DNA of 64,000 nucleotides from Pelagibacterium sp. 26DY04 (GTDB taxonomy: Bacteria > Pseudomonadota > Alphaproteobacteria > Rhizobiales > Devosiaceae). The stretch is taken from the NCBI RefSeq assembly GCF_031202305.1, contig NZ_CP101731.1, positions 3,536,501-3,600,500 of the forward strand. Reading direction: 5' to 3'. The notes beneath the pieces were generated by a model. That model saw only the letters and a list, made by a program, of their open reading frames with translations. It did no database searches and had not been told where the DNA came from. The position numbers and the translations under genes were made by a program. Of the stretch, positions 29,825-42,077 are shown one piece after another (position 1 is the stretch's first letter; every line of letters starts with the position of its first letter).

Positions 29825-30214
29825 TCAGGACAGCGCGCCGATCACCGCCTCGATACGCTTTTTCATGGTCGCGGCGTCGAACGGCTTGATGATGTAGTTG
29901 TTGACGCCGCATTCGATGGCTTCCTTGACCTGCTCCTTGTCGGAGCGTCCGGTCGCCATGATGAAGGGCATGCTCTGGGTCCGCGGATGCTTGCGGATGA
30001 CCTTCAGAAGCGTCAGCCCGTCGACATCGTCCATGTTCCAGTCGGAAATGATGAGGTCGACATTGGTCTTTTCAAGCTTGGTCAGGGCATCGCGGCCCGA
30101 TTTGGCCTCGATGATGTCCTTGAACCCGAGCTGGGTGAGGATGTACTTGCAGATGCCCCGCATGGACTGCTGGTCATCAACGATGAGAACGCTGACTGCG
30201 CTGGCCTTTGGCAT
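29825..30214 (-). CDS. cheY: Chemotaxis response regulator CheY (second copy, after cheB)
   Basis: 129 residues. A single receiver domain: acidic pair in LIVDDQQSM (D13, D14), phosphorylation site D58 in LIISDWNMDD, and conserved K in YIIKPFDA. The DWNMP-like segment reads DWNMDD, so the usual Pro is Asp, which also occurs in CheY proteins of Alphaproteobacteria. It follows cheB on the same strand. Whether it binds the flagellar switch or serves as a phosphate sink cannot be decided from sequence. The ATG at 30214 gives a typical N terminus. Confidence 0.9.
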   Translation of the reverse strand: MPKASAVSVLIVDDQQSMRGICKYILTQLGFKDIIEAKSGRDALTKLEKTNVDLIISDWNMDDVDGLTLLKVIRKHPRTQSMPFIMATGRSDKEQVKEAIECGVNNYIIKPFDAATMKKRIEAVIGALS

Positions 30215-30306
30215 GGATTCTCCGCCTGATGCGCCCGGAGTTCTTCCGGGAAGTCTGGCCGACAAAAATAGGCGGCAACCGTTACGATAGTCTCAATGGG
30301 AAAGGT

Positions 30307-31359
30307 TCAGGCTGCCGATTTGAGCTTGAGCAGCGCCGCGACCAACCGCCCGGCGATCTTTTCGACAGGCGCTTCCTCGACCACCGCTCCGATCTCGAAA
30401 GCGGCCTTGGGCATGCCGTAGATCAGCGCCGAGCCCCGCGACTGCCCAATAGTGAAGGCGCCCGCCTCGCGCATGGCCTTGAGGCCCGCCGCTCCATCGC
30501 GCCCCATTCCCGTCAGGATCGCCCCCACCGCCTTGGACCCCACCACCTTGGCCACCGAGGAAAACAGCACATCGACGCTCGGCCGGTGCCCGGAGGTGGC
30601 CTCGTCCTGGGTGACGCGGCATTTCATCTGCCCAGAGGTTCTTTCCACCCGGAGATGGAAATCTCCCGGCGCCACATAAGCGGTGCCATTGGCGAGCGGC
30701 ATGCGGTCCTCGGCCTCGACCACCTTGACCGGCACCAACTCATCGAGCCGGGCGGCAAAGCGCCCGGTAAAGCCCTTGGGCATATGCTGGGCGATCACGA
30801 TAGGCGGGCAATCGGTCGGGATCGTTGCCAGAACCTGCCGGATCGCTTCCACCCCGCCGGTCGAAGCCCCGATGGCGATCAGCGCCCCTTGCGGCGCCGC
30901 CGCGCTCTTGAGTGGCAGATCAGGGGCAGGCGCGCGATGAGCGCGCGCCTGGACATCGCTATGGGCGGCAAGCCTCACCTTCTCGCGCAGTGTCGCTCCG
31001 AACGCTTCAAGGCCACCGGCCATCTCGGCGCCGGGCTTGGCGACGAAATCGACAGCGCCCAACTCCAGCGCCAGCATGGTTTCGGAGGCACCCTTGGTGG
31101 TGAGGGTCGAAACCATGACTACGGGCATGGGCCGCAACCGCATGATCTTTTGCAGGAAGGCCAGCCCGTTCATATTGGGCATTTCGATGTCGAGCGTCAC
31201 CACATGGGGATTGAGCGCCTTGATCTTGTCGCGGGCGTCGAGAGGATCGTTGGCGGTTCCCACAACCGCGATATCGCCCTCCTGGGCCAGCAGCCGGCTC
31301 AAGACATCACGAATGAGCGCTGAATCATCGACGACGAGGACCCTGATGATCGAACTCAT
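30307..31359 (-). CDS. cheB: Chemotaxis protein-glutamate methylesterase CheB
   Basis: 350 residues. An N-terminal receiver (D11, D12, phospho-site D57 in LDIEMPNM) and a C-terminal methylesterase domain: IAIGASTGGVEAI with the nucleophile serine, QHMPKGFTGRF with the catalytic histidine, and GMGRDGAAGL with the aspartate. It demethylates or deamidates chemoreceptors, adapting the signal. Its ATG overlaps the cheR stop by 4 bases, coupling the two opposing enzymes. Confidence 0.96.
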   Translation of the reverse strand: MSSIIRVLVVDDSALIRDVLSRLLAQEGDIAVVGTANDPLDARDKIKALNPHVVTLDIEMPNMNGLAFLQKIMRLRPMPVVMVSTLTTKGASETMLALELGAVDFVAKPGAEMAGGLEAFGATLREKVRLAAHSDVQARAHRAPAPDLPLKSAAAPQGALIAIGASTGGVEAIRQVLATIPTDCPPIVIAQHMPKGFTGRFAARLDELVPVKVVEAEDRMPLANGTAYVAPGDFHLRVERTSGQMKCRVTQDEATSGHRPSVDVLFSSVAKVVGSKAVGAILTGMGRDGAAGLKAMREAGAFTIGQSRGSALIYGMPKAAFEIGAVVEEAPVEKIAGRLVAALLKLKSAA

Positions 31360-32219
31360 GCTGCTGCATCCCTGGTGTCGGAATCGGTTTTGCGCTGGTA
31401 GATCGTCTTGCCCACGAGCCTGTAGCCCTTCGATACGGCCTGCAGGTTTTCCGAATGCCCGATATAGAGGAACCCGTCGGGCGCCAGCACCTGGCCGAGC
31501 CGATCGAAAAGCATGCCCTGGGTTGGCTTGTCGAAATAGATTGCGACATTGCGGCAGAAGATGGCGTCGAATGGCCCGCTCACCGGCCAGGGCTCGATGA
31601 GGTTCAAGAGCTTGAAGGCGACCAGCTCACGCGCTTCCTGCGGGATGCGTATTTCGCCCGGCCCGGCCTTTTCGAACAGCATGGTCCGCTGCGCCGAAAG
31701 TCCGTTGAGCTCGCCCGCCGGATAGATGCCGGTTGCCGCTCTGGAAATGACGTTGGAATCTATGTCGGTGGCCAGAATGCGGAAATCCCAGCGCTTGAGC
31801 TCGGGATAGGCCGCAAGCAGGCTCAGCGCGATGGTATAGGGCTCCTGCCCGGTCGAGCATCCCGCCGACCAGATGCGCAGGCGCGGGCGCCCCCCCTTGC
31901 CCATGCGGCGCGGCTTGGAAATGAGCGTGCCAACAAAGCTCGAAAGATGCTCGAAATGATGATCCTCACGAAAGAACCGCGTGAGGTTGGTGGTGAGCGC
32001 ATTGACGAAATCCTGATCGTCCTCGGGGCGCCCCCGCATTTCGAGATAGTCGATATAGGCGTCGAAGCCGGAAAGCCCCAGGGCGCGGACGATCTTGGAA
32101 AGGCGCGAGACGACAAGGGTGCGCTTGGCGTCCGAAAGAGAGATGCCCGCAATACGGTAGACCCGCTCCCGGATGCGCGAAAACTCCCTTTCGCTCAAGC
32201 GAAACTCGCCGCTGTCCAT
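31356..32219 (-). CDS. cheR: Chemotaxis protein methyltransferase CheR
   Basis: 287 residues. An N-terminal helical domain (about 1-75) is followed by the SAM-binding domain: WSAGCSTGQEPYTIA is motif I, ILATDIDSNVIS binds the cofactor, and FDAIFCRNVAIYFD is the catalytic region. It methylates glutamates of chemoreceptors. The ATG at 32219 is preferred over an upstream in-frame codon. It lies 43 bases after the receptor gene. Confidence 0.95.
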   Translation of the reverse strand: MDSGEFRLSEREFSRIRERVYRIAGISLSDAKRTLVVSRLSKIVRALGLSGFDAYIDYLEMRGRPEDDQDFVNALTTNLTRFFREDHHFEHLSSFVGTLISKPRRMGKGGRPRLRIWSAGCSTGQEPYTIALSLLAAYPELKRWDFRILATDIDSNVISRAATGIYPAGELNGLSAQRTMLFEKAGPGEIRIPQEARELVAFKLLNLIEPWPVSGPFDAIFCRNVAIYFDKPTQGMLFDRLGQVLAPDGFLYIGHSENLQAVSKGYRLVGKTIYQRKTDSDTRDAAA

Positions 32220-32262
32220 GTGGCTTCCGCCCCCCGATGCCGGATCGTTGATCTTTATCGCT

Positions 32263-33849
32263 TCACCGATGCGCCGAAACGATCCCGGTTCTTGTTTTTT
32301 CGCGCCCCGCAAGCGGCTTGGCGGCCGCTTTCATATCCGGCTCAGGCGCAAGCGCGCCGGCCTGCCGCCGTGCCTGATCGTCCATCACCTCGACCTCGCC
32401 ATGGGCCGCGGCCAGTGCCACGCCGGTGTTGTCGAGATCCGAGCCGATCATGGCCGTCTGCTCACTTAAATTGCGTAAATGGACCGTGACCGATCCGATG
32501 GTTTGGGCCAGCGCTTCGGCCTCCGCCGTCCCGGCCTCGACATCGCCGAGCCCGGCCTTGACCAGCGCCCTGATGTCCTTGGACGATTTCGCGCTCGCCT
32601 TGGCCATTTCACGGACTTCGCTGGCAACCACCGCAAAGCCGGCGCCCTTTTCTCCGGCCCGTGCCGCTTCGACCGCCGCGTTGAGCGCCAATAGGTTGGT
32701 GCGGAAGGCAACATCCTCGATGCTTGCCACCAGGGCATCGATCCGCGTCACCAGTTCGTTGACCGCCGCGACGCGCCCGCGCGTCTGCTCGGCGGAAGCC
32801 CGCGCCCGCTCGATCTCGCCGGCGATCGCGCTCGCGTCTTCCCTCGCCTGCCCGGCCACGCCGCGCCCGCTCTCGATCGCGCCACGCGCCTTTTCCAGAT
32901 GCGCACGGGCGTCCGCAGCCGATGCCGTCAATGCCTGCGCCGTTCCACGGCAGATCTCGACGAGCGCGCCCACCTTTTCCAGCCGGACCCGCATGCGCTG
33001 CCGCCCTTCCATCGCCGCCGTCCGCTCCGCATCGAGCTCGGCGATCTGGCCGATCAGCGTATCCACACGCGCCGACATCCGGTCATTGCCGCCGCTCTGG
33101 TCGGGCAGCAGACCTTCGGCCAGAGCATCGAGCCGCTCCGCGGCCGCATCGAGCGTCCCCAGACCGGCGTTGATCGTCTCGAGTTCGGGCGTTTCGGCGA
33201 TGTCTTGCGCACTTATCCTGTAGCCCGTGTCCCCGCCCGCCAGCGCCTGGCCGAGATCGGAAAGCACCCGCGCGCAAACCACACGGCCAGGACGCTCCAG
33301 CTCGATCAGCCAGCGGTCATGCCCCAGAGGGGAAACGCGCGCGCGATAGCGACGGTCGCCCAGGATCAGAGCATGCTCGCATTCTTCTTCCGCGAACTCG
33401 GCCTCGATGCCCAGCAGGGCCGACGCCGTATCCGTTTCGGCGCATTCGGGGGCGAGCGCGGCCAAACCCTTGCTCATCTTGACGATCACCCCCTGCCCAT
33501 CGGCCAGCATGGCGGGCCTATCGAGGGTTTCGAAGGCCGTCATATAGGTCATGGCCCGTTCGAGCCTCTGGCACAGATTAGCGGTGATCGCCCGCATATG
33601 TTCGAGTTCGGAAGCCCTCCCGATCGGCCCGCTTCCCACCGCCTCTCCGAGATCGGACAAGGCCCGGCGCTGGGCGCGCTCCACAATGAGCACGGCCAAA
33701 AAACTCACGCCGATGGCGGCAAACCATACCCCAGCCACTGCCATCGCCCACCAGGACGCAGACGAAAAATTGACGCCCAGCCAAACGCAGACCGCAACGG
33801 TCGCAGACCACAGCGCAAGCAGCGCGGAAACCAGCCGGATGCGGGACAA
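32263..33849 (-). CDS. Methyl-accepting chemotaxis protein without a periplasmic domain
   Basis: 528 residues from a TTG start with AAGG nine bases upstream. Two transmembrane helices (about 7-27 and 35-57) are joined by a very short loop, so it cannot bind ligands outside. A PAS-like cytoplasmic region (about 95-185) follows, then coiled coil, then the signalling hairpin SIEDVAFRTNLLALNAAVEAARAG. No clear HAMP domain and no NWETF-type tether for CheR at the C terminus. It is probably an internal or membrane-state sensor, perhaps redox or energy. The gene sits directly upstream of cheR. Confidence 0.85.
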   Translation of the reverse strand: MSRIRLVSALLALWSATVAVCVWLGVNFSSASWWAMAVAGVWFAAIGVSFLAVLIVERAQRRALSDLGEAVGSGPIGRASELEHMRAITANLCQRLERAMTYMTAFETLDRPAMLADGQGVIVKMSKGLAALAPECAETDTASALLGIEAEFAEEECEHALILGDRRYRARVSPLGHDRWLIELERPGRVVCARVLSDLGQALAGGDTGYRISAQDIAETPELETINAGLGTLDAAAERLDALAEGLLPDQSGGNDRMSARVDTLIGQIAELDAERTAAMEGRQRMRVRLEKVGALVEICRGTAQALTASAADARAHLEKARGAIESGRGVAGQAREDASAIAGEIERARASAEQTRGRVAAVNELVTRIDALVASIEDVAFRTNLLALNAAVEAARAGEKGAGFAVVASEVREMAKASAKSSKDIRALVKAGLGDVEAGTAEAEALAQTIGSVTVHLRNLSEQTAMIGSDLDNTGVALAAAHGEVEVMDDQARRQAGALAPEPDMKAAAKPLAGREKTRTGIVSAHR

Positions 33850-33944: not shown

Positions 33945-34565
33945 CTAGAACAACTCGATATCGTCGGCGGCGGGCTTTTTGACCTGCCGCCGCGCGATCG
34001 CCAGTTCCTCGTGCACCAGCCGCGCGCTGTCGGTGCTATCGAGGCGCTTGACGAAGGCCCGCCCCGTATGGGGCTGGAACATCACGCGCCGCGCGAACGT
34101 GCCCCCCAGATCCTGGCTGGCAACCACATAACCTTCATTGCCCAGGAATTCATGCACGAATTCGATGTTTTTAAGTCCCACATCGTTCATGCCCGCATAG
34201 ATGTTGCCGCCGCCGAACACCTTGAATTCGAGATTGTGCTTCCGGCCGGTGCCCTTGCTCAGCACCATGTTGATGAGCTGCTCCATGGCAAAGGCCCCAT
34301 AGCGTGCCGATTCCCCAAAGCGGTCTTTAGAGCTTTCCCCCTGGCTGGCCAAAAGGAAATGGTTCATGCCCCCCACCTGCGCCGCGCGATCGCGCACGCA
34401 GGCCGAGATGCACGACCCCAGAACTGTCGAAAAGGTGATCTCGGGTTTGCCGGAAACCATGCAATCGCCCTGGTGGATCGTTGTGACCACACCGCGCGTG
34501 AAATTATCGGGCATCAAACCAAATATAACGGCATTGCCGCTTCCCTGTAACGCTGCTTCGGCCAT
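33945..34565 (-). CDS. cheD: Chemoreceptor glutamine deamidase CheD
   Basis: 206 residues. The CheD catalytic core is present: VLGSCISACVRD with the nucleophile C52, and GGMNHFLL with the catalytic H69. It deamidates receptor glutamines to glutamates and in some systems acts with CheC. No cheC is present here. The C-terminal segment is charged and ends in ADDIELF, an acidic-aromatic tail similar to the last residues of the small gene that it faces. First gene of the cheD-receptor-cheR-cheB-cheY run. Confidence 0.92.
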   Translation of the reverse strand: MAEAALQGSGNAVIFGLMPDNFTRGVVTTIHQGDCMVSGKPEITFSTVLGSCISACVRDRAAQVGGMNHFLLASQGESSKDRFGESARYGAFAMEQLINMVLSKGTGRKHNLEFKVFGGGNIYAGMNDVGLKNIEFVHEFLGNEGYVVASQDLGGTFARRVMFQPHTGRAFVKRLDSTDSARLVHEELAIARRQVKKPAADDIELF

Positions 34566-34729: not shown

Positions 34730-35083
34730 ATGGGCTTGCACAAACTGGCCAGAGAGCTGGAAGAAACCGCGCGCCAGACCGCGGAAATGGTCGATGGCAT
34801 CACGGCCAGCCTGTTGGTCCTGGGCGACACCTCGATCGATTGCACCACGGCCCGCTCGACCGCCATCCGCCAGATCGTCGTCGCCTTGCAGATGCAGGAC
34901 CGCATCGAGCAGCGCTGCCGCAACATGGCCGAAGCCGCCCGCAGGATGGCAGAGCTTCCCGAAGGCTCCGATGCCCAGGCCAATGAAGCGGTGTGGTCTT
35001 CGCTGACCCTGGATGAATTGCGCGACGAATCCCTCTCGGGCATCGCCGCCCGCACCAATTCGGGCGAAGTCGAGTTCTTCTAG
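34730..35083 (+). CDS. Small chemotaxis-locus protein with a CheZ-like DxxxQ motif
   Basis: 117 residues, predicted largely helical: helix about 1-35 (LHKLARELEETARQTAEMV), helix about 43-75, then a linker and a C-terminal tail ending SGEVEFF. The second helix contains QMQDRIEQR, placing D57 and Q61 in the DxxxQ spacing of the CheZ active site (DLTGQ in enterobacterial CheZ), where D and Q coordinate and attack phospho-CheY. CheZ also has a C-terminal acidic/aromatic peptide that docks on CheY. It is about half the length of CheZ. The gene faces away from cheD and converges with cheW; it is the only plus-strand gene in the chemotaxis cluster. Function is inferred; no family is recognised with certainty. 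Confidence 0.7.
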   Translation: MGLHKLARELEETARQTAEMVDGITASLLVLGDTSIDCTTARSTAIRQIVVALQMQDRIEQRCRNMAEAARRMAELPEGSDAQANEAVWSSLTLDELRDESLSGIAARTNSGEVEFF

Positions 35084-35152: not shown

Positions 35153-35641
35153 TCAGACGTCGGTCTTGGCGCCCGAGACCACCGCGGCGAGATCGATCAG
35201 GCCCACCATGCGGCCGTCATGGGTGACGATGCCGTTGAGAAGTTCGGTGTCGCCCGAATTGCCTTCCGGCACAGCGTGGATATCGTCCTTGGAAACGGTG
35301 AGGATATCGGACACCGCATCGACCAGGATGCCGATCCACTTTTCCCCCACGCTCATCACGACGACGACGTGGTTCTTGGTGGGGTTGGTCTGGCCGTCGC
35401 CGAAGCGGGCGCGCAGGTCGAAGATCGGGACGATCGTGCCGCGCAGATTGATCACTCCACGCACATATTCGCGCGTGTTGGGCAGCGGGGTCGCCCCGTT
35501 CCACGCGCGGATCTCGCGCACCGTGGTGATCTCGACGCCATAGATCTGTTCGTCGATCGAAAAGGCGATGAGCTGCAGCGAGTTCTGGCTCGCTCCCGCC
35601 GTTGTGTCCGAATAGTCGTCGCGAAGTCCAAGCGCTTCCAT
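35153..35641 (-). CDS. cheW: Chemotaxis coupling protein CheW
   Basis: 162 residues, with about 20 residues before the CheW beta-barrel. VEITTVREIRAWNGATPLPN, GVINLRGTIVPIFDLRARF and VDAVSDIL are the usual landmarks. It joins chemoreceptors to CheA. It follows cheA by 41 bases and closes the operon before a terminator. Confidence 0.94.
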   Translation of the reverse strand: MEALGLRDDYSDTTAGASQNSLQLIAFSIDEQIYGVEITTVREIRAWNGATPLPNTREYVRGVINLRGTIVPIFDLRARFGDGQTNPTKNHVVVVMSVGEKWIGILVDAVSDILTVSKDDIHAVPEGNSGDTELLNGIVTHDGRMVGLIDLAAVVSGAKTDV

Positions 35642-35682: not shown

Positions 35683-37863
35683 CTATGCCGCATTCTGATG
35701 GGCATTTGTCGATTTGAGAGATTGCACATCAACAATCAACGCAACGTTACCATCGCCAAGGATCGTGCCCCCGGCGATGCCGTCGATGCGCTCGAAATTC
35801 TCTTCGAGCGATTTGATCACCACCTGCTGCTGGCCGATGATGTCATCGACCACCAGCGCGATCTTGGAATTGCCCTCGGCCTCGCACAACACCACGAACC
35901 GGCTGTCCTCGGACTGGGTGGAAGCCAGGCCGAAGCGCTGGGCGAGATCGACGACCTGCACGTAATCACCGCGCACCTGCAGCACTTTCCCGCCCGAGGG
36001 CATATGCCCGAAATCGGCGCGTGCGTTCTGGATGGTCTCAACGATGGAAGAGAGCGGGATGACGTAGGGGCTGCCGGCCACCTTGACCAGCATGACATCG
36101 AGCACGGCCAGCGTCAGCGGCAGGCGCAGCGTCATGCGCGTGCCCTTGCCGGTCCAGGAGCGCACGTGGACCGAACCGCCGATCTTCTTGATGTTGGAAA
36201 GGACCACGTCCATCCCCACGCCGCGGCCCGAGATGTCGGAAACCTCGCTCGCCGTCGAAAAGCCGGGGGCAAAGATCAGGTTGTCGATCTGCTCATCGGT
36301 CAATTGCTGGTCGGGGCCAACGACGCCGCGCTCGCGCGCGATCTGTAGAACGCGGTCGCGGTTGATGCCGGCTCCATCGTCTTCCACGACGATAAGGATG
36401 TTGCCGCCGGCCTGCTCGGCCGAGAGCCTGATGGTACCCATTTCGGGCTTGCCCGCTGCGAGGCGCTTTTCGGGGCTTTCGATGCCGTGATCGGCCGAAT
36501 TGCGCACCATGTGGGTAAGGGGATCGGAAAGCTGCTCGATCACCGTCTTGTCGATCTCGGTGGCTTCCCCGATGGTGTCGAGCTTGATCTTCTTGCCGGT
36601 TTTGGCCGCCAGCTCGCGAACCAGACGCGGCATGCGCGAGAACACCGATTTGACCGGTTGCGCGCGGATCGCCATCACCGCGTCCTGCAGGCCGCGCGTG
36701 GTCTGGGCCAGAACCTCGATGCCGCGCACCAGCTCCTGGTAGCGGTCGCGGATGGCGTCATCCATCTGCTGGGTCAGCATGGACTGGGTGATGACCAGTT
36801 CGCCCACCATATTGACGACGCGATCGACCTTGTCGAGATCGACCCGGATCGAAGACATCCCGATAGGCCGGCCGGCGGTCTCCTCGGCAGCCTCGCTCGT
36901 GGTGGAGGACGGCGCGACCGGGGCCGCCTCTTGAGCGCGAACGGCCGGTGCCGCGAAAGCAGGTTCGAGTTCGGCCATCAGGTCGTCGGGCTCACCGGTC
37001 GGCACGAATTTGCGCTCCGCCTTGGCCTCTTCGGCCAGCGCGGCAAAGCTCGGCATCTCCTCGTCCATCGCCAGGGGCGCGGCCTCGCTCCTTTCGATCG
37101 AAATGGCGCAATCGCCATCGACGAATTCGAAGACTTCGCGGATCGCCTCTTCGCTTGCCCTGTCCGAGACCAGTTCGATGGTCCAGGAACAATAGACCCC
37201 GAAAGGATCGAAATCGGCCAGGAGCGGCATTTTCGCAAGCTCTGGCGTCACCGTCATCGTGCCCAGCAGCCCTAGTTCTCGGAACAGCAGCAGCGGATCG
37301 TTGGCGCGCTCATAGAGAGTGGCAAAGGGCGTAAACCGGATGGTCCAGACGGTCGCGCCGCCAGCGGCTTGAACCGTGGACGGGGCCGCATCGAGGTTCA
37401 CCACGACGGGGGTGAAATCGATATCGAATTCATCCATCGCTTCCTCGCCATCCTCGGGCTGGGCCAATTCGACCGCATCGCCGCGGCTGAGCGCGTCGAA
37501 CTGCGCCTTTTCCACGGCGCCATAATCGGCAGCCAGCGTCTCGCCATTGCGTGCCGCGGCGACGAAATCGGCAACGATGTCGACCGAACGGATGCAGAGG
37601 ACGACCACGTCCTCGCCGAGCTCCACTCGTCCGTCCCGGACATAGTCGAGCAGCGTCTCGAAGCTGTGGGCGAAGCGCACCAGCGCATCGAACCCGAAAG
37701 CCCCGCCCCCGCCCTTGATCGAATGAATGGCGCGGAACACCGCGTTCAGGCGATCGGGGCTTCTGTCGCCCTCCTGGATCGCCGAAAACTGCTCCTCGAG
37801 TTCGAGCAGCAATTCGGAACATTCATCGAAATATGTGGCCTTGAATTCGTCGAGGTCACTCAT
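35683..37863 (-). CDS. cheA: Chemotaxis histidine kinase CheA
   Basis: 726 residues from the ATG at 37863. P1: HSIKGGGGAFGF with phospho-accepting H47. P2-like region about 160-280 (WTIRFTPFATLYERANDPLL), where CheY docks. P3: SIRVDLDKVDRVVNMVGEL, dimerisation. P4: HMVRNSADHGIE (N box), DDGAGI (G1), GRGVGMDVV (G2), an intact ATPase. P5: C-terminal CheW-like domain. A GTG at 37875 with AGGGGG close upstream could start it four residues earlier. It lies between cheY and cheW in one operon. Confidence 0.96.
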   Translation of the reverse strand: MSDLDEFKATYFDECSELLLELEEQFSAIQEGDRSPDRLNAVFRAIHSIKGGGGAFGFDALVRFAHSFETLLDYVRDGRVELGEDVVVLCIRSVDIVADFVAAARNGETLAADYGAVEKAQFDALSRGDAVELAQPEDGEEAMDEFDIDFTPVVVNLDAAPSTVQAAGGATVWTIRFTPFATLYERANDPLLLFRELGLLGTMTVTPELAKMPLLADFDPFGVYCSWTIELVSDRASEEAIREVFEFVDGDCAISIERSEAAPLAMDEEMPSFAALAEEAKAERKFVPTGEPDDLMAELEPAFAAPAVRAQEAAPVAPSSTTSEAAEETAGRPIGMSSIRVDLDKVDRVVNMVGELVITQSMLTQQMDDAIRDRYQELVRGIEVLAQTTRGLQDAVMAIRAQPVKSVFSRMPRLVRELAAKTGKKIKLDTIGEATEIDKTVIEQLSDPLTHMVRNSADHGIESPEKRLAAGKPEMGTIRLSAEQAGGNILIVVEDDGAGINRDRVLQIARERGVVGPDQQLTDEQIDNLIFAPGFSTASEVSDISGRGVGMDVVLSNIKKIGGSVHVRSWTGKGTRMTLRLPLTLAVLDVMLVKVAGSPYVIPLSSIVETIQNARADFGHMPSGGKVLQVRGDYVQVVDLAQRFGLASTQSEDSRFVVLCEAEGNSKIALVVDDIIGQQQVVIKSLEENFERIDGIAGGTILGDGNVALIVDVQSLKSTNAHQNAA

Positions 37864-37902
37864 TTTGCCAGCCACAGCCCCCTGTGCGCGCGCCCGAGAT
37901 GT

Positions 37903-38262
37903 CTAGTGGACGACCTTGTTGATGACGCTGATAAGCTTTTCGGGATCGAACGGTTTGACGATCCAGCCCGTCCCGCCGGCAGCGCGCCCCTGGTCGCGCT
38001 TGTCCTGGCTGGTTTCGGTGGTGAGGATGAGGATCGGCAAGCTCTGATGCTTGCCGGTCGAACGCACTTGTTTGATGAACTCGATCCCGTCCATCACCGG
38101 CATGTTGATATCGGTGATCACCACATCGACATCCTCGCGGCCCAGAACGTCGAGCCCGACCTGTCCGTTTTCGGCCTGCAGCACCTCAAAACCCGCATTG
38201 GTGAGGGTGTGGTGCAGCATGGCGAGGATGGTTCGCGAATCATCGACTGTCAGAACGCGCAT
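37903..38262 (-). CDS. cheY: Chemotaxis response regulator CheY (first copy, before cheA)
   Basis: 119 residues. Receiver domain: D7-D8 in LTVDDSR, phospho-site D51 in ITDINMPVMDG, T in LTTETSQ, K in WIVKPFDPEK. Closely spaced with the STAS gene upstream and cheA downstream, the usual order in Alphaproteobacteria. Together with the second CheY it could split roles between flagellar-switch binding and phosphate sink. Confidence 0.94.
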   Translation of the reverse strand: MRVLTVDDSRTILAMLHHTLTNAGFEVLQAENGQVGLDVLGREDVDVVITDINMPVMDGIEFIKQVRSTGKHQSLPILILTTETSQDKRDQGRAAGGTGWIVKPFDPEKLISVINKVVH

Positions 38263-38269
38263 AAGAGGA

Positions 38270-38560
38270 TTATCCCTTGAGAACGGGTTTAAAGACCGGA
38301 CCGAGTCCGAGCTTTTCGATTGCGCCGGTAACCACCGTGCTCGCATCCGAAATTGTGAAGGAGAAACCGGCTTTTTTCGCCGTTTCCGAGGCACTCAGGA
38401 GCATGAACAGCGCATTGGTCGAGACACGGTCGACGGCCGAGCCATCGACATCGACCGGACCGGCATGGAGTGCATCGAGCAAGGTTTCGCGGATCTCATC
38501 GAGCGCATCGAGATCGACAACCCGCGGCAAGGCCACGGACTGAGCTTGCGATTTTGGCAT
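38270..38560 (-). CDS. STAS domain protein of the chemotaxis operon
   Basis: 96 residues. A small STAS (anti-anti-sigma-like) domain: VVDLDALDEIRETLLDAL, DGSAVDRVSTNALFMLLSA, where the serine/threonine after VDR is at the usual phosphorylation position, and SDASTVVTGAIEKLGLG. It lies 7 bases before cheY and is the first gene of the STAS-cheY-cheA-cheW operon. Such proteins occur in many alphaproteobacterial che operons; the role is not settled. Confidence 0.85.
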   Translation of the reverse strand: MPKSQAQSVALPRVVDLDALDEIRETLLDALHAGPVDVDGSAVDRVSTNALFMLLSASETAKKAGFSFTISDASTVVTGAIEKLGLGPVFKPVLKG

Positions 38561-41336: not shown

Positions 41337-42077
41337 ATGAGTTCCGTTGCACCCGGTTCGGGGGTCTCGTTTTCACAACGTCTGATCGATTTTCTTGACA
41401 GGATCGAATATCGCCGCCTCGAAGAGCCGGCCGAGCGCGAGCAGGCATTCAACCTGCGATATGAAGCCTATGTCCGCGAGGGGATGATCTCCATCGCCTT
41501 CGAAAAGCGGCTGACCGATGCCTATGACGAGATGGACAACGTCCATGTCTTCGGCATCTACATGGATGGCGAAATCGCCAGCACCATCCGGGTGCACGTC
41601 GCCAGCCCCGGCATGGCTCACTCACCGACGGTCGATGCCTTTCCCGAAATGCTGATGCCCGAGATCGACAAGGGCAGCACCATCGTCGATCCCACCCGGT
41701 TCGCGGTGCATCCGGCCATGAGTGGGCGTCATCCCGAACTGCCCTATGTCACAGCGCGGCTGGGCTTCCTGGCGTCTGAATATTACGCCGCCGATCTGGG
41801 GCTTGCCTCGGTACGGCTCGAGCACCAGGCATTCTACAAGCGCCTGTTCGGCCTGCGGCCCTTGTGTCCGCCCCGCGTCTACCATGGCATGAACAAGCAG
41901 CTCAGCCTCATGGGCATAAACTATTGCGCCGTGCGCGAAAGCGTCGTCGCCCGCTATCCTTTCATGCGCACCACGGCCGAGGAGCTCGACACTCTCTTCG
42001 GCATGGCTTCGGTTCCGCTGGGCGCCCTGGCTGCGGCAGCGGCAGCCCGCAATGTCGAGTCCGTTGGCACCCGATAG
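41337..42077 (+). CDS. FeeM-type N-acyl amino acid synthase domain protein
   Basis: 246 residues. The core (about 20-210) resembles the FeeM/autoinducer-synthase-like GNAT fold: FNLRYEAYVREGM, then DNVHVFGIYMDGEIASTIRVHV, then the conserved VDPTRFAVHPAM and YVTARLGFLASEYYAADLG. FeeM joins a fatty acyl group from acyl carrier protein to an amino acid such as tyrosine; relatives may do other acylations. GGAGGG lies six bases before the ATG. A CtrA-like box lies upstream. It stands alone, with convergent alpha/beta hydrolase after it. Confidence 0.78.
   Translation: MSSVAPGSGVSFSQRLIDFLDRIEYRRLEEPAEREQAFNLRYEAYVREGMISIAFEKRLTDAYDEMDNVHVFGIYMDGEIASTIRVHVASPGMAHSPTVDAFPEMLMPEIDKGSTIVDPTRFAVHPAMSGRHPELPYVTARLGFLASEYYAADLGLASVRLEHQAFYKRLFGLRPLCPPRVYHGMNKQLSLMGINYCAVRESVVARYPFMRTTAEELDTLFGMASVPLGALAAAAAARNVESVGTR

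Follow-up and report, generated by a model that had tools for sequence, protein, structure and literature searches.

In a chemotaxis (che) gene cluster of Pelagibacterium sp. 26DY04 we identified a 117-residue protein, P0002, which is best read as a remote CheT-like candidate phosphatase of the DxxxQ type. P0002 is probably a free phosphatase of this kind, with D57 and Q61 as its putative catalytic residues, a docking tail at its C-terminus, and the sink regulator CheY1, rather than the motor CheY, as its most likely substrate. The features concerned are listed below with their positions in the window, that is the whole stretch of 64,000 nucleotides that was analysed.

29825..30265, − strand: cheY2, response regulator adjoining cheB (PF00072)
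30307..31359, − strand: cheB (PF01339)
31356..32312, − strand: cheR (PF01739)
32263..33849, − strand: methyl-accepting chemotaxis protein (MCP) without a C-terminal tether (PF00015; end read)
33945..34565, − strand: cheD, divergent neighbour of P0002, protein ending in DDIELF (PF03975, 1e-24; translation)
33948..33962, − strand: CheD tail DIELF, of the same kind as EVEFF (translation; tail counts)
34730..35083, + strand: P0002, CheT-like mini-phosphatase candidate ORF, 117 aa (ORF and translation, codon-position test, relatives)
34883..34912, + strand: AxxxQDxxxQ stretch A52-LQM-QDRIEQ61 with the putative catalytic pair (Q56, D57, R58 and Q61 invariant; predicted helix 38-74)
34898-34900 and 34910-34912, + strand: codons of D57 and Q61
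34994..35020, + strand: W89 to L97 (WSSLTLDEL), small conserved element aligning in register with CheT and receptor-fused modules
35066..35080, + strand: P0002 tail EVEFF (F117 invariant among the matches listed; pLDDT <50)
35153..35641, − strand: cheW, convergent neighbour of P0002 (PF01584)
35683..37875, − strand: cheA (Hpt, H-kinase_dim, HATPase_c and CheW domains)
37903..38265, − strand: cheY1, response regulator flanked by the STAS gene and cheA (PF00072; order as in S. meliloti; start assumed at 38265, the longest ORF extending to 38394)
38270..38560, − strand: STAS protein in the position of cheS (PF13466; gene order as in S. meliloti)

Translation of the P0002 frame gave QMQDRIEQR, which contains D57 and Q61, and a GEVEFF C-terminus, confirming the 117-residue product, the D57-x3-Q61 spacing and the EVEFF end given in the initial annotation. 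Against ten relatives of the same genus, the frame shows 115, 78 and 374 differences at codon positions 1, 2 and 3, respectively. Because the differences concentrate at the third position (374 of 567), P0002 is considered a genuine protein gene. It lies on the + strand, whereas the surrounding che genes identified with Pfam are all on the − strand, with cheY2, cheB, cheR, the MCP gene and cheD on one side and cheW, cheA, cheY1 and the STAS gene on the other. Its placement inside a che cluster of the opposite strand, the linkage to che genes and the presence of two CheY proteins (both PF00072 response regulators) were all borne out. The cluster MCP carries no receptor pentapeptide, and four of the eight MCPs of the genome end in DWSEF, DWKEF or DWDEF. 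P0002 is present in 34 of 61 related genomes (E 0.001), 34 of the 37 of the window's family and 0 of the 24 of other families, and its named homologues, several from Devosia and one from Arsenicitalea among the matches listed, are annotated as hypothetical or uncharacterized. Elsewhere in the window (41337-42077, + strand), a 246-aa ORF gives the impression of an autoinducer/N-acyl amino acid synthase-type acyltransferase.

A DxxxQ motif alone is weak evidence. Chance would place it in about 24% of proteins as long as P0002, and among 1919 ORFs of 90-160 aa it occurs in 346; for the longer QxxDxxxQ the expectation is 1%, and 45 of the 1919 have it. It is conservation that makes the D57/Q61 motif meaningful. 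We aligned P0002 with the 120 listed of 1007 matches, one of the 120 being the window's own protein. In these 121 sequences, among the matches listed, Q54, Q56, D57, R58, I59, Q61 and R62 are invariant, as are W89, L94, D95, E96, L97 and F117, and A52 is kept in at least 98%. Neither D57 nor Q61 thus varies freely, and it is this invariance, not the mere occurrence of the motif, that we count as evidence. QDxxxQ was also found in 58 of 58 P0002 members in a survey of stretches of the window's family. A comparison of 15 sequences from seven families, to some of which the motif itself had led, left M1 and the residues Q, D and Q of QxxDxxxQ as the only invariant positions.

The AlphaFold2 monomer model of P0002 (mean pLDDT 78.8, pTM 0.65) predicts a hairpin of helices 2-32 and 38-74, followed by a helix at 82-90 and a short one at 104-109, with a low-confidence tail (residues 106-117, pLDDT <50). 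D57 and Q61 sit in helix 38-74, on its hydrophilic face; their angles to the hydrophobic moment are about 118 and 158 degrees, the corresponding values being 144 and 176 in CheT and 116 and 156 in the receptor-fused module described below. Judged by this moment, the pair points away from the core in all three. In the model of a Rhizobium CheT (pLDDT 77.3), D63 and Q67 are found in a long helix (55-80), and the first helix is split into shorter ones. A VIA-align search with the P0002 model gave no CheZ row, an absence which by the tool's own note excludes nothing.

P0002 had been compared to CheZ from the outset. It shares with CheZ the DxxxQ pair, the alanine and glutamine of AXXFQ, a predicted helical hairpin and a tail ending in F, but it has half the length of CheZ, no Pfam match and no profile similarity. 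CheZ membership was rejected: PF04344 (CheZ) does not match P0002, and in hhalign five CheZ sequences gave 0.4%, not above the controls (reversed CheZ, 0.9%). The CheZ stretch is AXXFQ-DXXXQ according to a passage of PMC7750401; at the position of F, 94 of the 121 P0002-family sequences, among the matches listed, have G, 21 have M and 6 have A. PF04509 (CheC) does not match P0002 either, and neither PF04344 nor PF04509 has a match anywhere in the window's genome. PF04344 does match in 14 of 41 genomes of the window's family, and the 10 of these with data (8 and 2, from two surveys) all carry a P0002 relative too, so that P0002 is not simply a CheZ substitute. Six CheZ proteins of family genomes (L230-L233, L275 and L276) end in IDELF, IDAMF or VDAMF. 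The PF04344 gene of L275 and that of L276 each adjoin another CheY-like gene.

A closer counterpart is CheT, described for rhizobia, Agrobacterium, Caulobacter and Hoeflea in a section of a review (PMC12654446). In S. meliloti, according to the same section, CheT is encoded next to cheD, has a DXXXQ motif and a CheZ-like predicted structure, forms a complex with CheR and speeds dephosphorylation of only one of the two CheYs (PMC12654446). The S. meliloti cluster runs globin-coupled sensor, STAS, response regulator, cheA, cheW, cheR, cheB, response regulator, cheD and a 124-aa hypothetical protein, the latter with LQGIDLAVQ and the tail DFEAF. In the original study, the substrate of CheT is said to be CheY1 and not CheY2. 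Like the CheT genes of S. meliloti and other Rhizobiaceae, the P0002 gene adjoins cheD and belongs to a cluster that encodes two CheYs and a STAS protein, and like CheT the protein has QxxDxxxQ in a predicted helix and an acidic tail ending in F. Their sizes are similar as well: P0002 has 117 aa, the S. meliloti protein 124 aa, and those of Rhizobium mostly 128-130 aa. The two differ in the motif itself (QMQDRIEQ against QGIDLAVQ) and in orientation, since the S. meliloti CheT gene runs in the same direction as the che genes and that of P0002 opposite to them.

By profile the relation is remote. P0002 matched CheT candidates at 86.8% (hhalign, E 4.2e-6), with motif and tail in register, and a larger CheT set at 77.4% (E 1.9e-5), reversed and unrelated controls staying below 1%. 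A CheT HMM matched the P0002 family weakly, with a best E of 0.0018 while a reversed decoy reached 0.055. The NCBIfam equivalog model for CheT, NF047973, with which a Rhizobium CheT scores 216 bits, gave no match to P0002 at E up to 10, and for this reason we call the protein CheT-like and not CheT. The initial annotation, in which P0002 would be a minimal phospho-CheY phosphatase, is thus partly supported: it was right in kind, but the idea is not new because the kind is already described as CheT (in the section cited of PMC12654446).

We also searched 5102 ORFs of che loci outside the family with a P0002-family HMM. The best 22 matches all have QxxDxxxQ. The top one is a free 125-aa ORF adjoining cheD in another family (8e-8); it is followed, from 1e-5, mainly by receptor-like proteins with QFQDRxxQ near their end, the best reversed sequence having an E of 4.2. 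In hhalign, P0002 matches the C-terminal module of 29 such receptor-like proteins at 96.3% (E 1.6e-9; controls below 1%), better than it matches CheT (96.3% vs 77.4%). As an example, a protein of Methylobacterium oryzae CBMB20 (pMOC3), encoded near a STAS gene and a response regulator, has AMQFQDRAKQ and ends in GIDLF. Like P0002, these modules have an AMQFQDRAKQ-type helix, a short L-rich element (TLGEVR) and a tail such as GIDLF or DIELF. However, they sit behind the MCP signalling domain of a cytoplasmic receptor-like protein, annotated as methyl-accepting chemotaxis protein, in clusters with one CheY, whereas P0002 is free. HMM scores set the fused receptor-like proteins apart as a separate family: 18 served to build their HMM, and the 12 left out score at least 165 bits. 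The MCP of the window, at 77.6 bits, falls within the range of ordinary MCPs (up to 99.4), and an origin of P0002 by fission from this MCP was therefore rejected.

The distribution of the two forms was surveyed in CheD-bearing genomes, which number 32 of 219 in the order and 36 of 337 in the class. G169 (one of the 24 order matches outside the family) and G393 (a weak class match) were left out. The resulting 67 stretches (L087-L118 and L123-L157) include 9 of the window's family and 23 of the remaining order, the other 35 coming from the class survey; 61 clusters with at least three of cheA, cheW, cheR and cheB were kept (L114, L117, L130, L136, L137 and L157 being excluded). The module is free in 30 of these clusters, receptor-fused in 29, neither in 2 and both in none. 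All 24 clusters with two or more CheYs have the free form; those with fewer than two have 29 fused and 6 free modules (Fisher's exact test on 24, 0, 6 and 29, 3e-11, with related genomes that are not independent and HMMs built partly from the same loci). The free loci counted with fewer than two CheYs are L100, L103, L105, L108, L123 and L155, of which L100 and L103 show both CheY types when counted in another way. By our own assignment of the full set of 67 loci, 32 are free and 30 fused, while 5 have neither form; free modules are spread over 14 families and fused ones over 22, no family having both. A cheY2-type CheY was found in 0 of the 30 fused loci, and both CheY types in 26 of the 32 free loci. 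The free-module match is weak or odd in L123, L146, L148, L150, L151 and L155. In L123, a receptor-like protein (4202) ending in DIELF lacks QDxxxQ, and QSVDRRRQ is found in a separate 169-aa protein (7557) that ends in EDVLF; the two may be parts of a split fused receptor.

The tail is not a CheZ-like feature private to P0002, since CheD ends in a tail of the same kind. With a strict pattern ([DE]x[DE][LF]F, with at most two residues after it), it was found in 41 of 63 CheDs and in 10 of 10 close P0002 relatives. It was absent from CheA (0/60), CheB (0/59), CheR (0/61), CheW (0/57), CheY-like (0/117) and STAS proteins (0/37). Among MCP-like proteins 18 of 93 have it; 16 of these belong to the 30 fused receptors and two do not. 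The looser pattern [IVA][EDQ][LMF]F is found in 29 of the 30 fused receptors. Only 9 of 4371 other ORFs carry the strict tail, two of them overlooked cheD genes (L087 and L123) and seven of them free modules. The 22 CheDs off the strict pattern are mostly near variants (e.g. GGIELFD), those of L157 and L134 excepted. Free modules have the strict tail in 17 of 32 cases; the tail is altered or followed by extra residues in L097, L100, L103, L104, L106 and L108, takes variant forms in L109, L123, L143, L151 and L156, and is lacking in L139, L150, L153 and L155, CheD keeping its own in L150, L153 and L155. In a phylum survey of 28 CheD loci (L242-L269, mostly from other classes), 14 of the 17 long forms have an ELF-like tail, which none of the 11 short ones (about 157 aa) shows.

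The likeness of tails bears on the partner to which they would dock. CheZ is known to bind CheY through its tail, a role that PMC7750401 also mentions, and four CheZ proteins of family genomes end in IDELF or IDAMF; this similarity favours CheY. C-terminal pentapeptides of receptors have an aromatic-xx-aromatic spacing, which the DFEAF end of S. meliloti CheT fits, and this resemblance favours CheR. CheR beta-subdomain sequences favoured neither partner. We place CheY before CheR. In a rival reading, P0002 would mainly be an adaptor or tether, its tail mimicking a receptor pentapeptide and binding CheR (or CheB) so as to link adaptation to the CheYs, with a DxxxQ hairpin that binds CheY and has little catalysis. 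The DFEAF spacing, the ends of half of the MCPs of the window's genome and the reported CheT-CheR complex (PMC12654446, in the section cited) speak for such a role. However, the first aromatic is replaced by V or I in the P0002 and CheD of the window, CheR and CheB are retained in a cluster (G003, below) where P0002 and the CheD tail are gone, and the invariance of D57 and Q61 (121 sequences, among the matches listed) points to catalysis. We regard a mainly adaptor role as rather unlikely, and the phosphatase reading as preferable.

A natural loss suggests which CheY the putative phosphatase would serve. The family survey comprised 70 stretches (60 new ones of 116 genomes, 9 earlier ones and G003), of which eleven with no cheD in view, the cluster being split, were excluded from the co-loss count. 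In 58 of the 59 stretches with cheD, P0002 is present and the CheD ends in D[IV]ELF. The exception, G003 (L274, G003:C25:118500-137500), belongs to the window's genus and keeps cheA, cheW, cheD, cheR, cheB, cheY2 and the STAS gene, but no P0002, cheY1 or cluster MCP was found in its cluster, and its CheD end has no such tail in any frame. The best match to cheY1 elsewhere in G003 is 37%, compared with 93-96% in two relatives and 34% for a paralogue in the window's genome. If CheY1 is the partner that P0002 and the CheD tail have in common, one would expect both to disappear with it and CheR, CheB, CheA and CheY2 to stay, as seen here. The co-loss is only suggestive, because it is a single event in a fast-evolving or foreign cluster, which is strongly diverged (identities of 62% for CheA, 50% for CheD and 36% for the STAS protein) and also devoid of its MCP. 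A cluster MCP is absent, too, from at least L111, where P0002 is kept. Besides G003, two of the 37 family genomes searched for P0002 lack it, G014 and G020 (the latter 60% complete), and neither has a CheD match. In S. meliloti the regulator beside cheA is the phosphate sink, and a passage of PMC8429497 describes CheY1 in this role. Together with the likeness to CheT, the co-loss leads us to infer that P0002 removes phosphate from CheY1.

P0002 might instead act on the motor regulator CheY2, or on both CheYs, as a plain small replacement of CheZ. Its AxxxQDxxxQ stretch does resemble that of CheZ (PMC7750401, passage cited) in a genome where PF04344 has no match. Nevertheless, G003 lost P0002 with CheY1 and kept a CheY2 that is 84% identical, CheT is reported in the section cited to act on one CheY only (PMC12654446), and the ten PF04344-positive family genomes with data also carry a P0002 relative; we therefore consider a CheY2 phosphatase improbable. 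Very unlikely, in our view, is a role of P0002 as a helical accessory of the signalling array, for instance as a partner of CheA or of a receptor, with an incidental DxxxQ: helical hairpins and chance DxxxQ motifs are both common, but D57 and Q61 are unvarying in the 121 sequences (among the matches listed) and, with M1 and the first Q, alone persist across the seven families, in a set of 15 partly chosen by the motif.

In CheZ, the DxxxQ pair reaches into the active site of CheY~P, where it assists the attack of water on the acyl-phosphate. By analogy, the short predicted hairpin of P0002 (2-32 and 38-74) would expose D57 and Q61, which would act in the same manner. The flexible GEVEFF peptide would serve as the docking tail. 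P0002 would in this way empty the CheY1 sink rather than act on the motor CheY.

In several rhizobia, which have no CheZ, a second CheY serves as phosphate sink (in a passage of PMC8429497), and how the chemotaxis signal ends in such bacteria is only in part understood. What appears new here, judged from sequence comparison, is the breadth of the module, free or fused, and the type of tail that it has in common with CheD; in the open-licence literature we found no published description of the receptor-fused form or of the shared CheD tail, and no report of the fused module as a phosphatase. We tentatively suggest, as a possibility that we hold with considerable doubt, that in Alphaproteobacteria almost all che clusters with CheD (59 of the 61 examined) have the same CheY~P phosphatase module, present once per cluster, either free with two CheYs or at the end of a cytoplasmic receptor-like protein with one. 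The module and CheD would share a kind of C-terminal docking peptide directed at the CheY whose gene adjoins cheA, wiring dephosphorylation and receptor modification to one response regulator. If this is true, CheT would be one form of a class-wide module and not a rhizobial oddity, the other form being part of a receptor, and the joint role of CheD and the second CheY would become testable with short tail peptides and the two response regulators.
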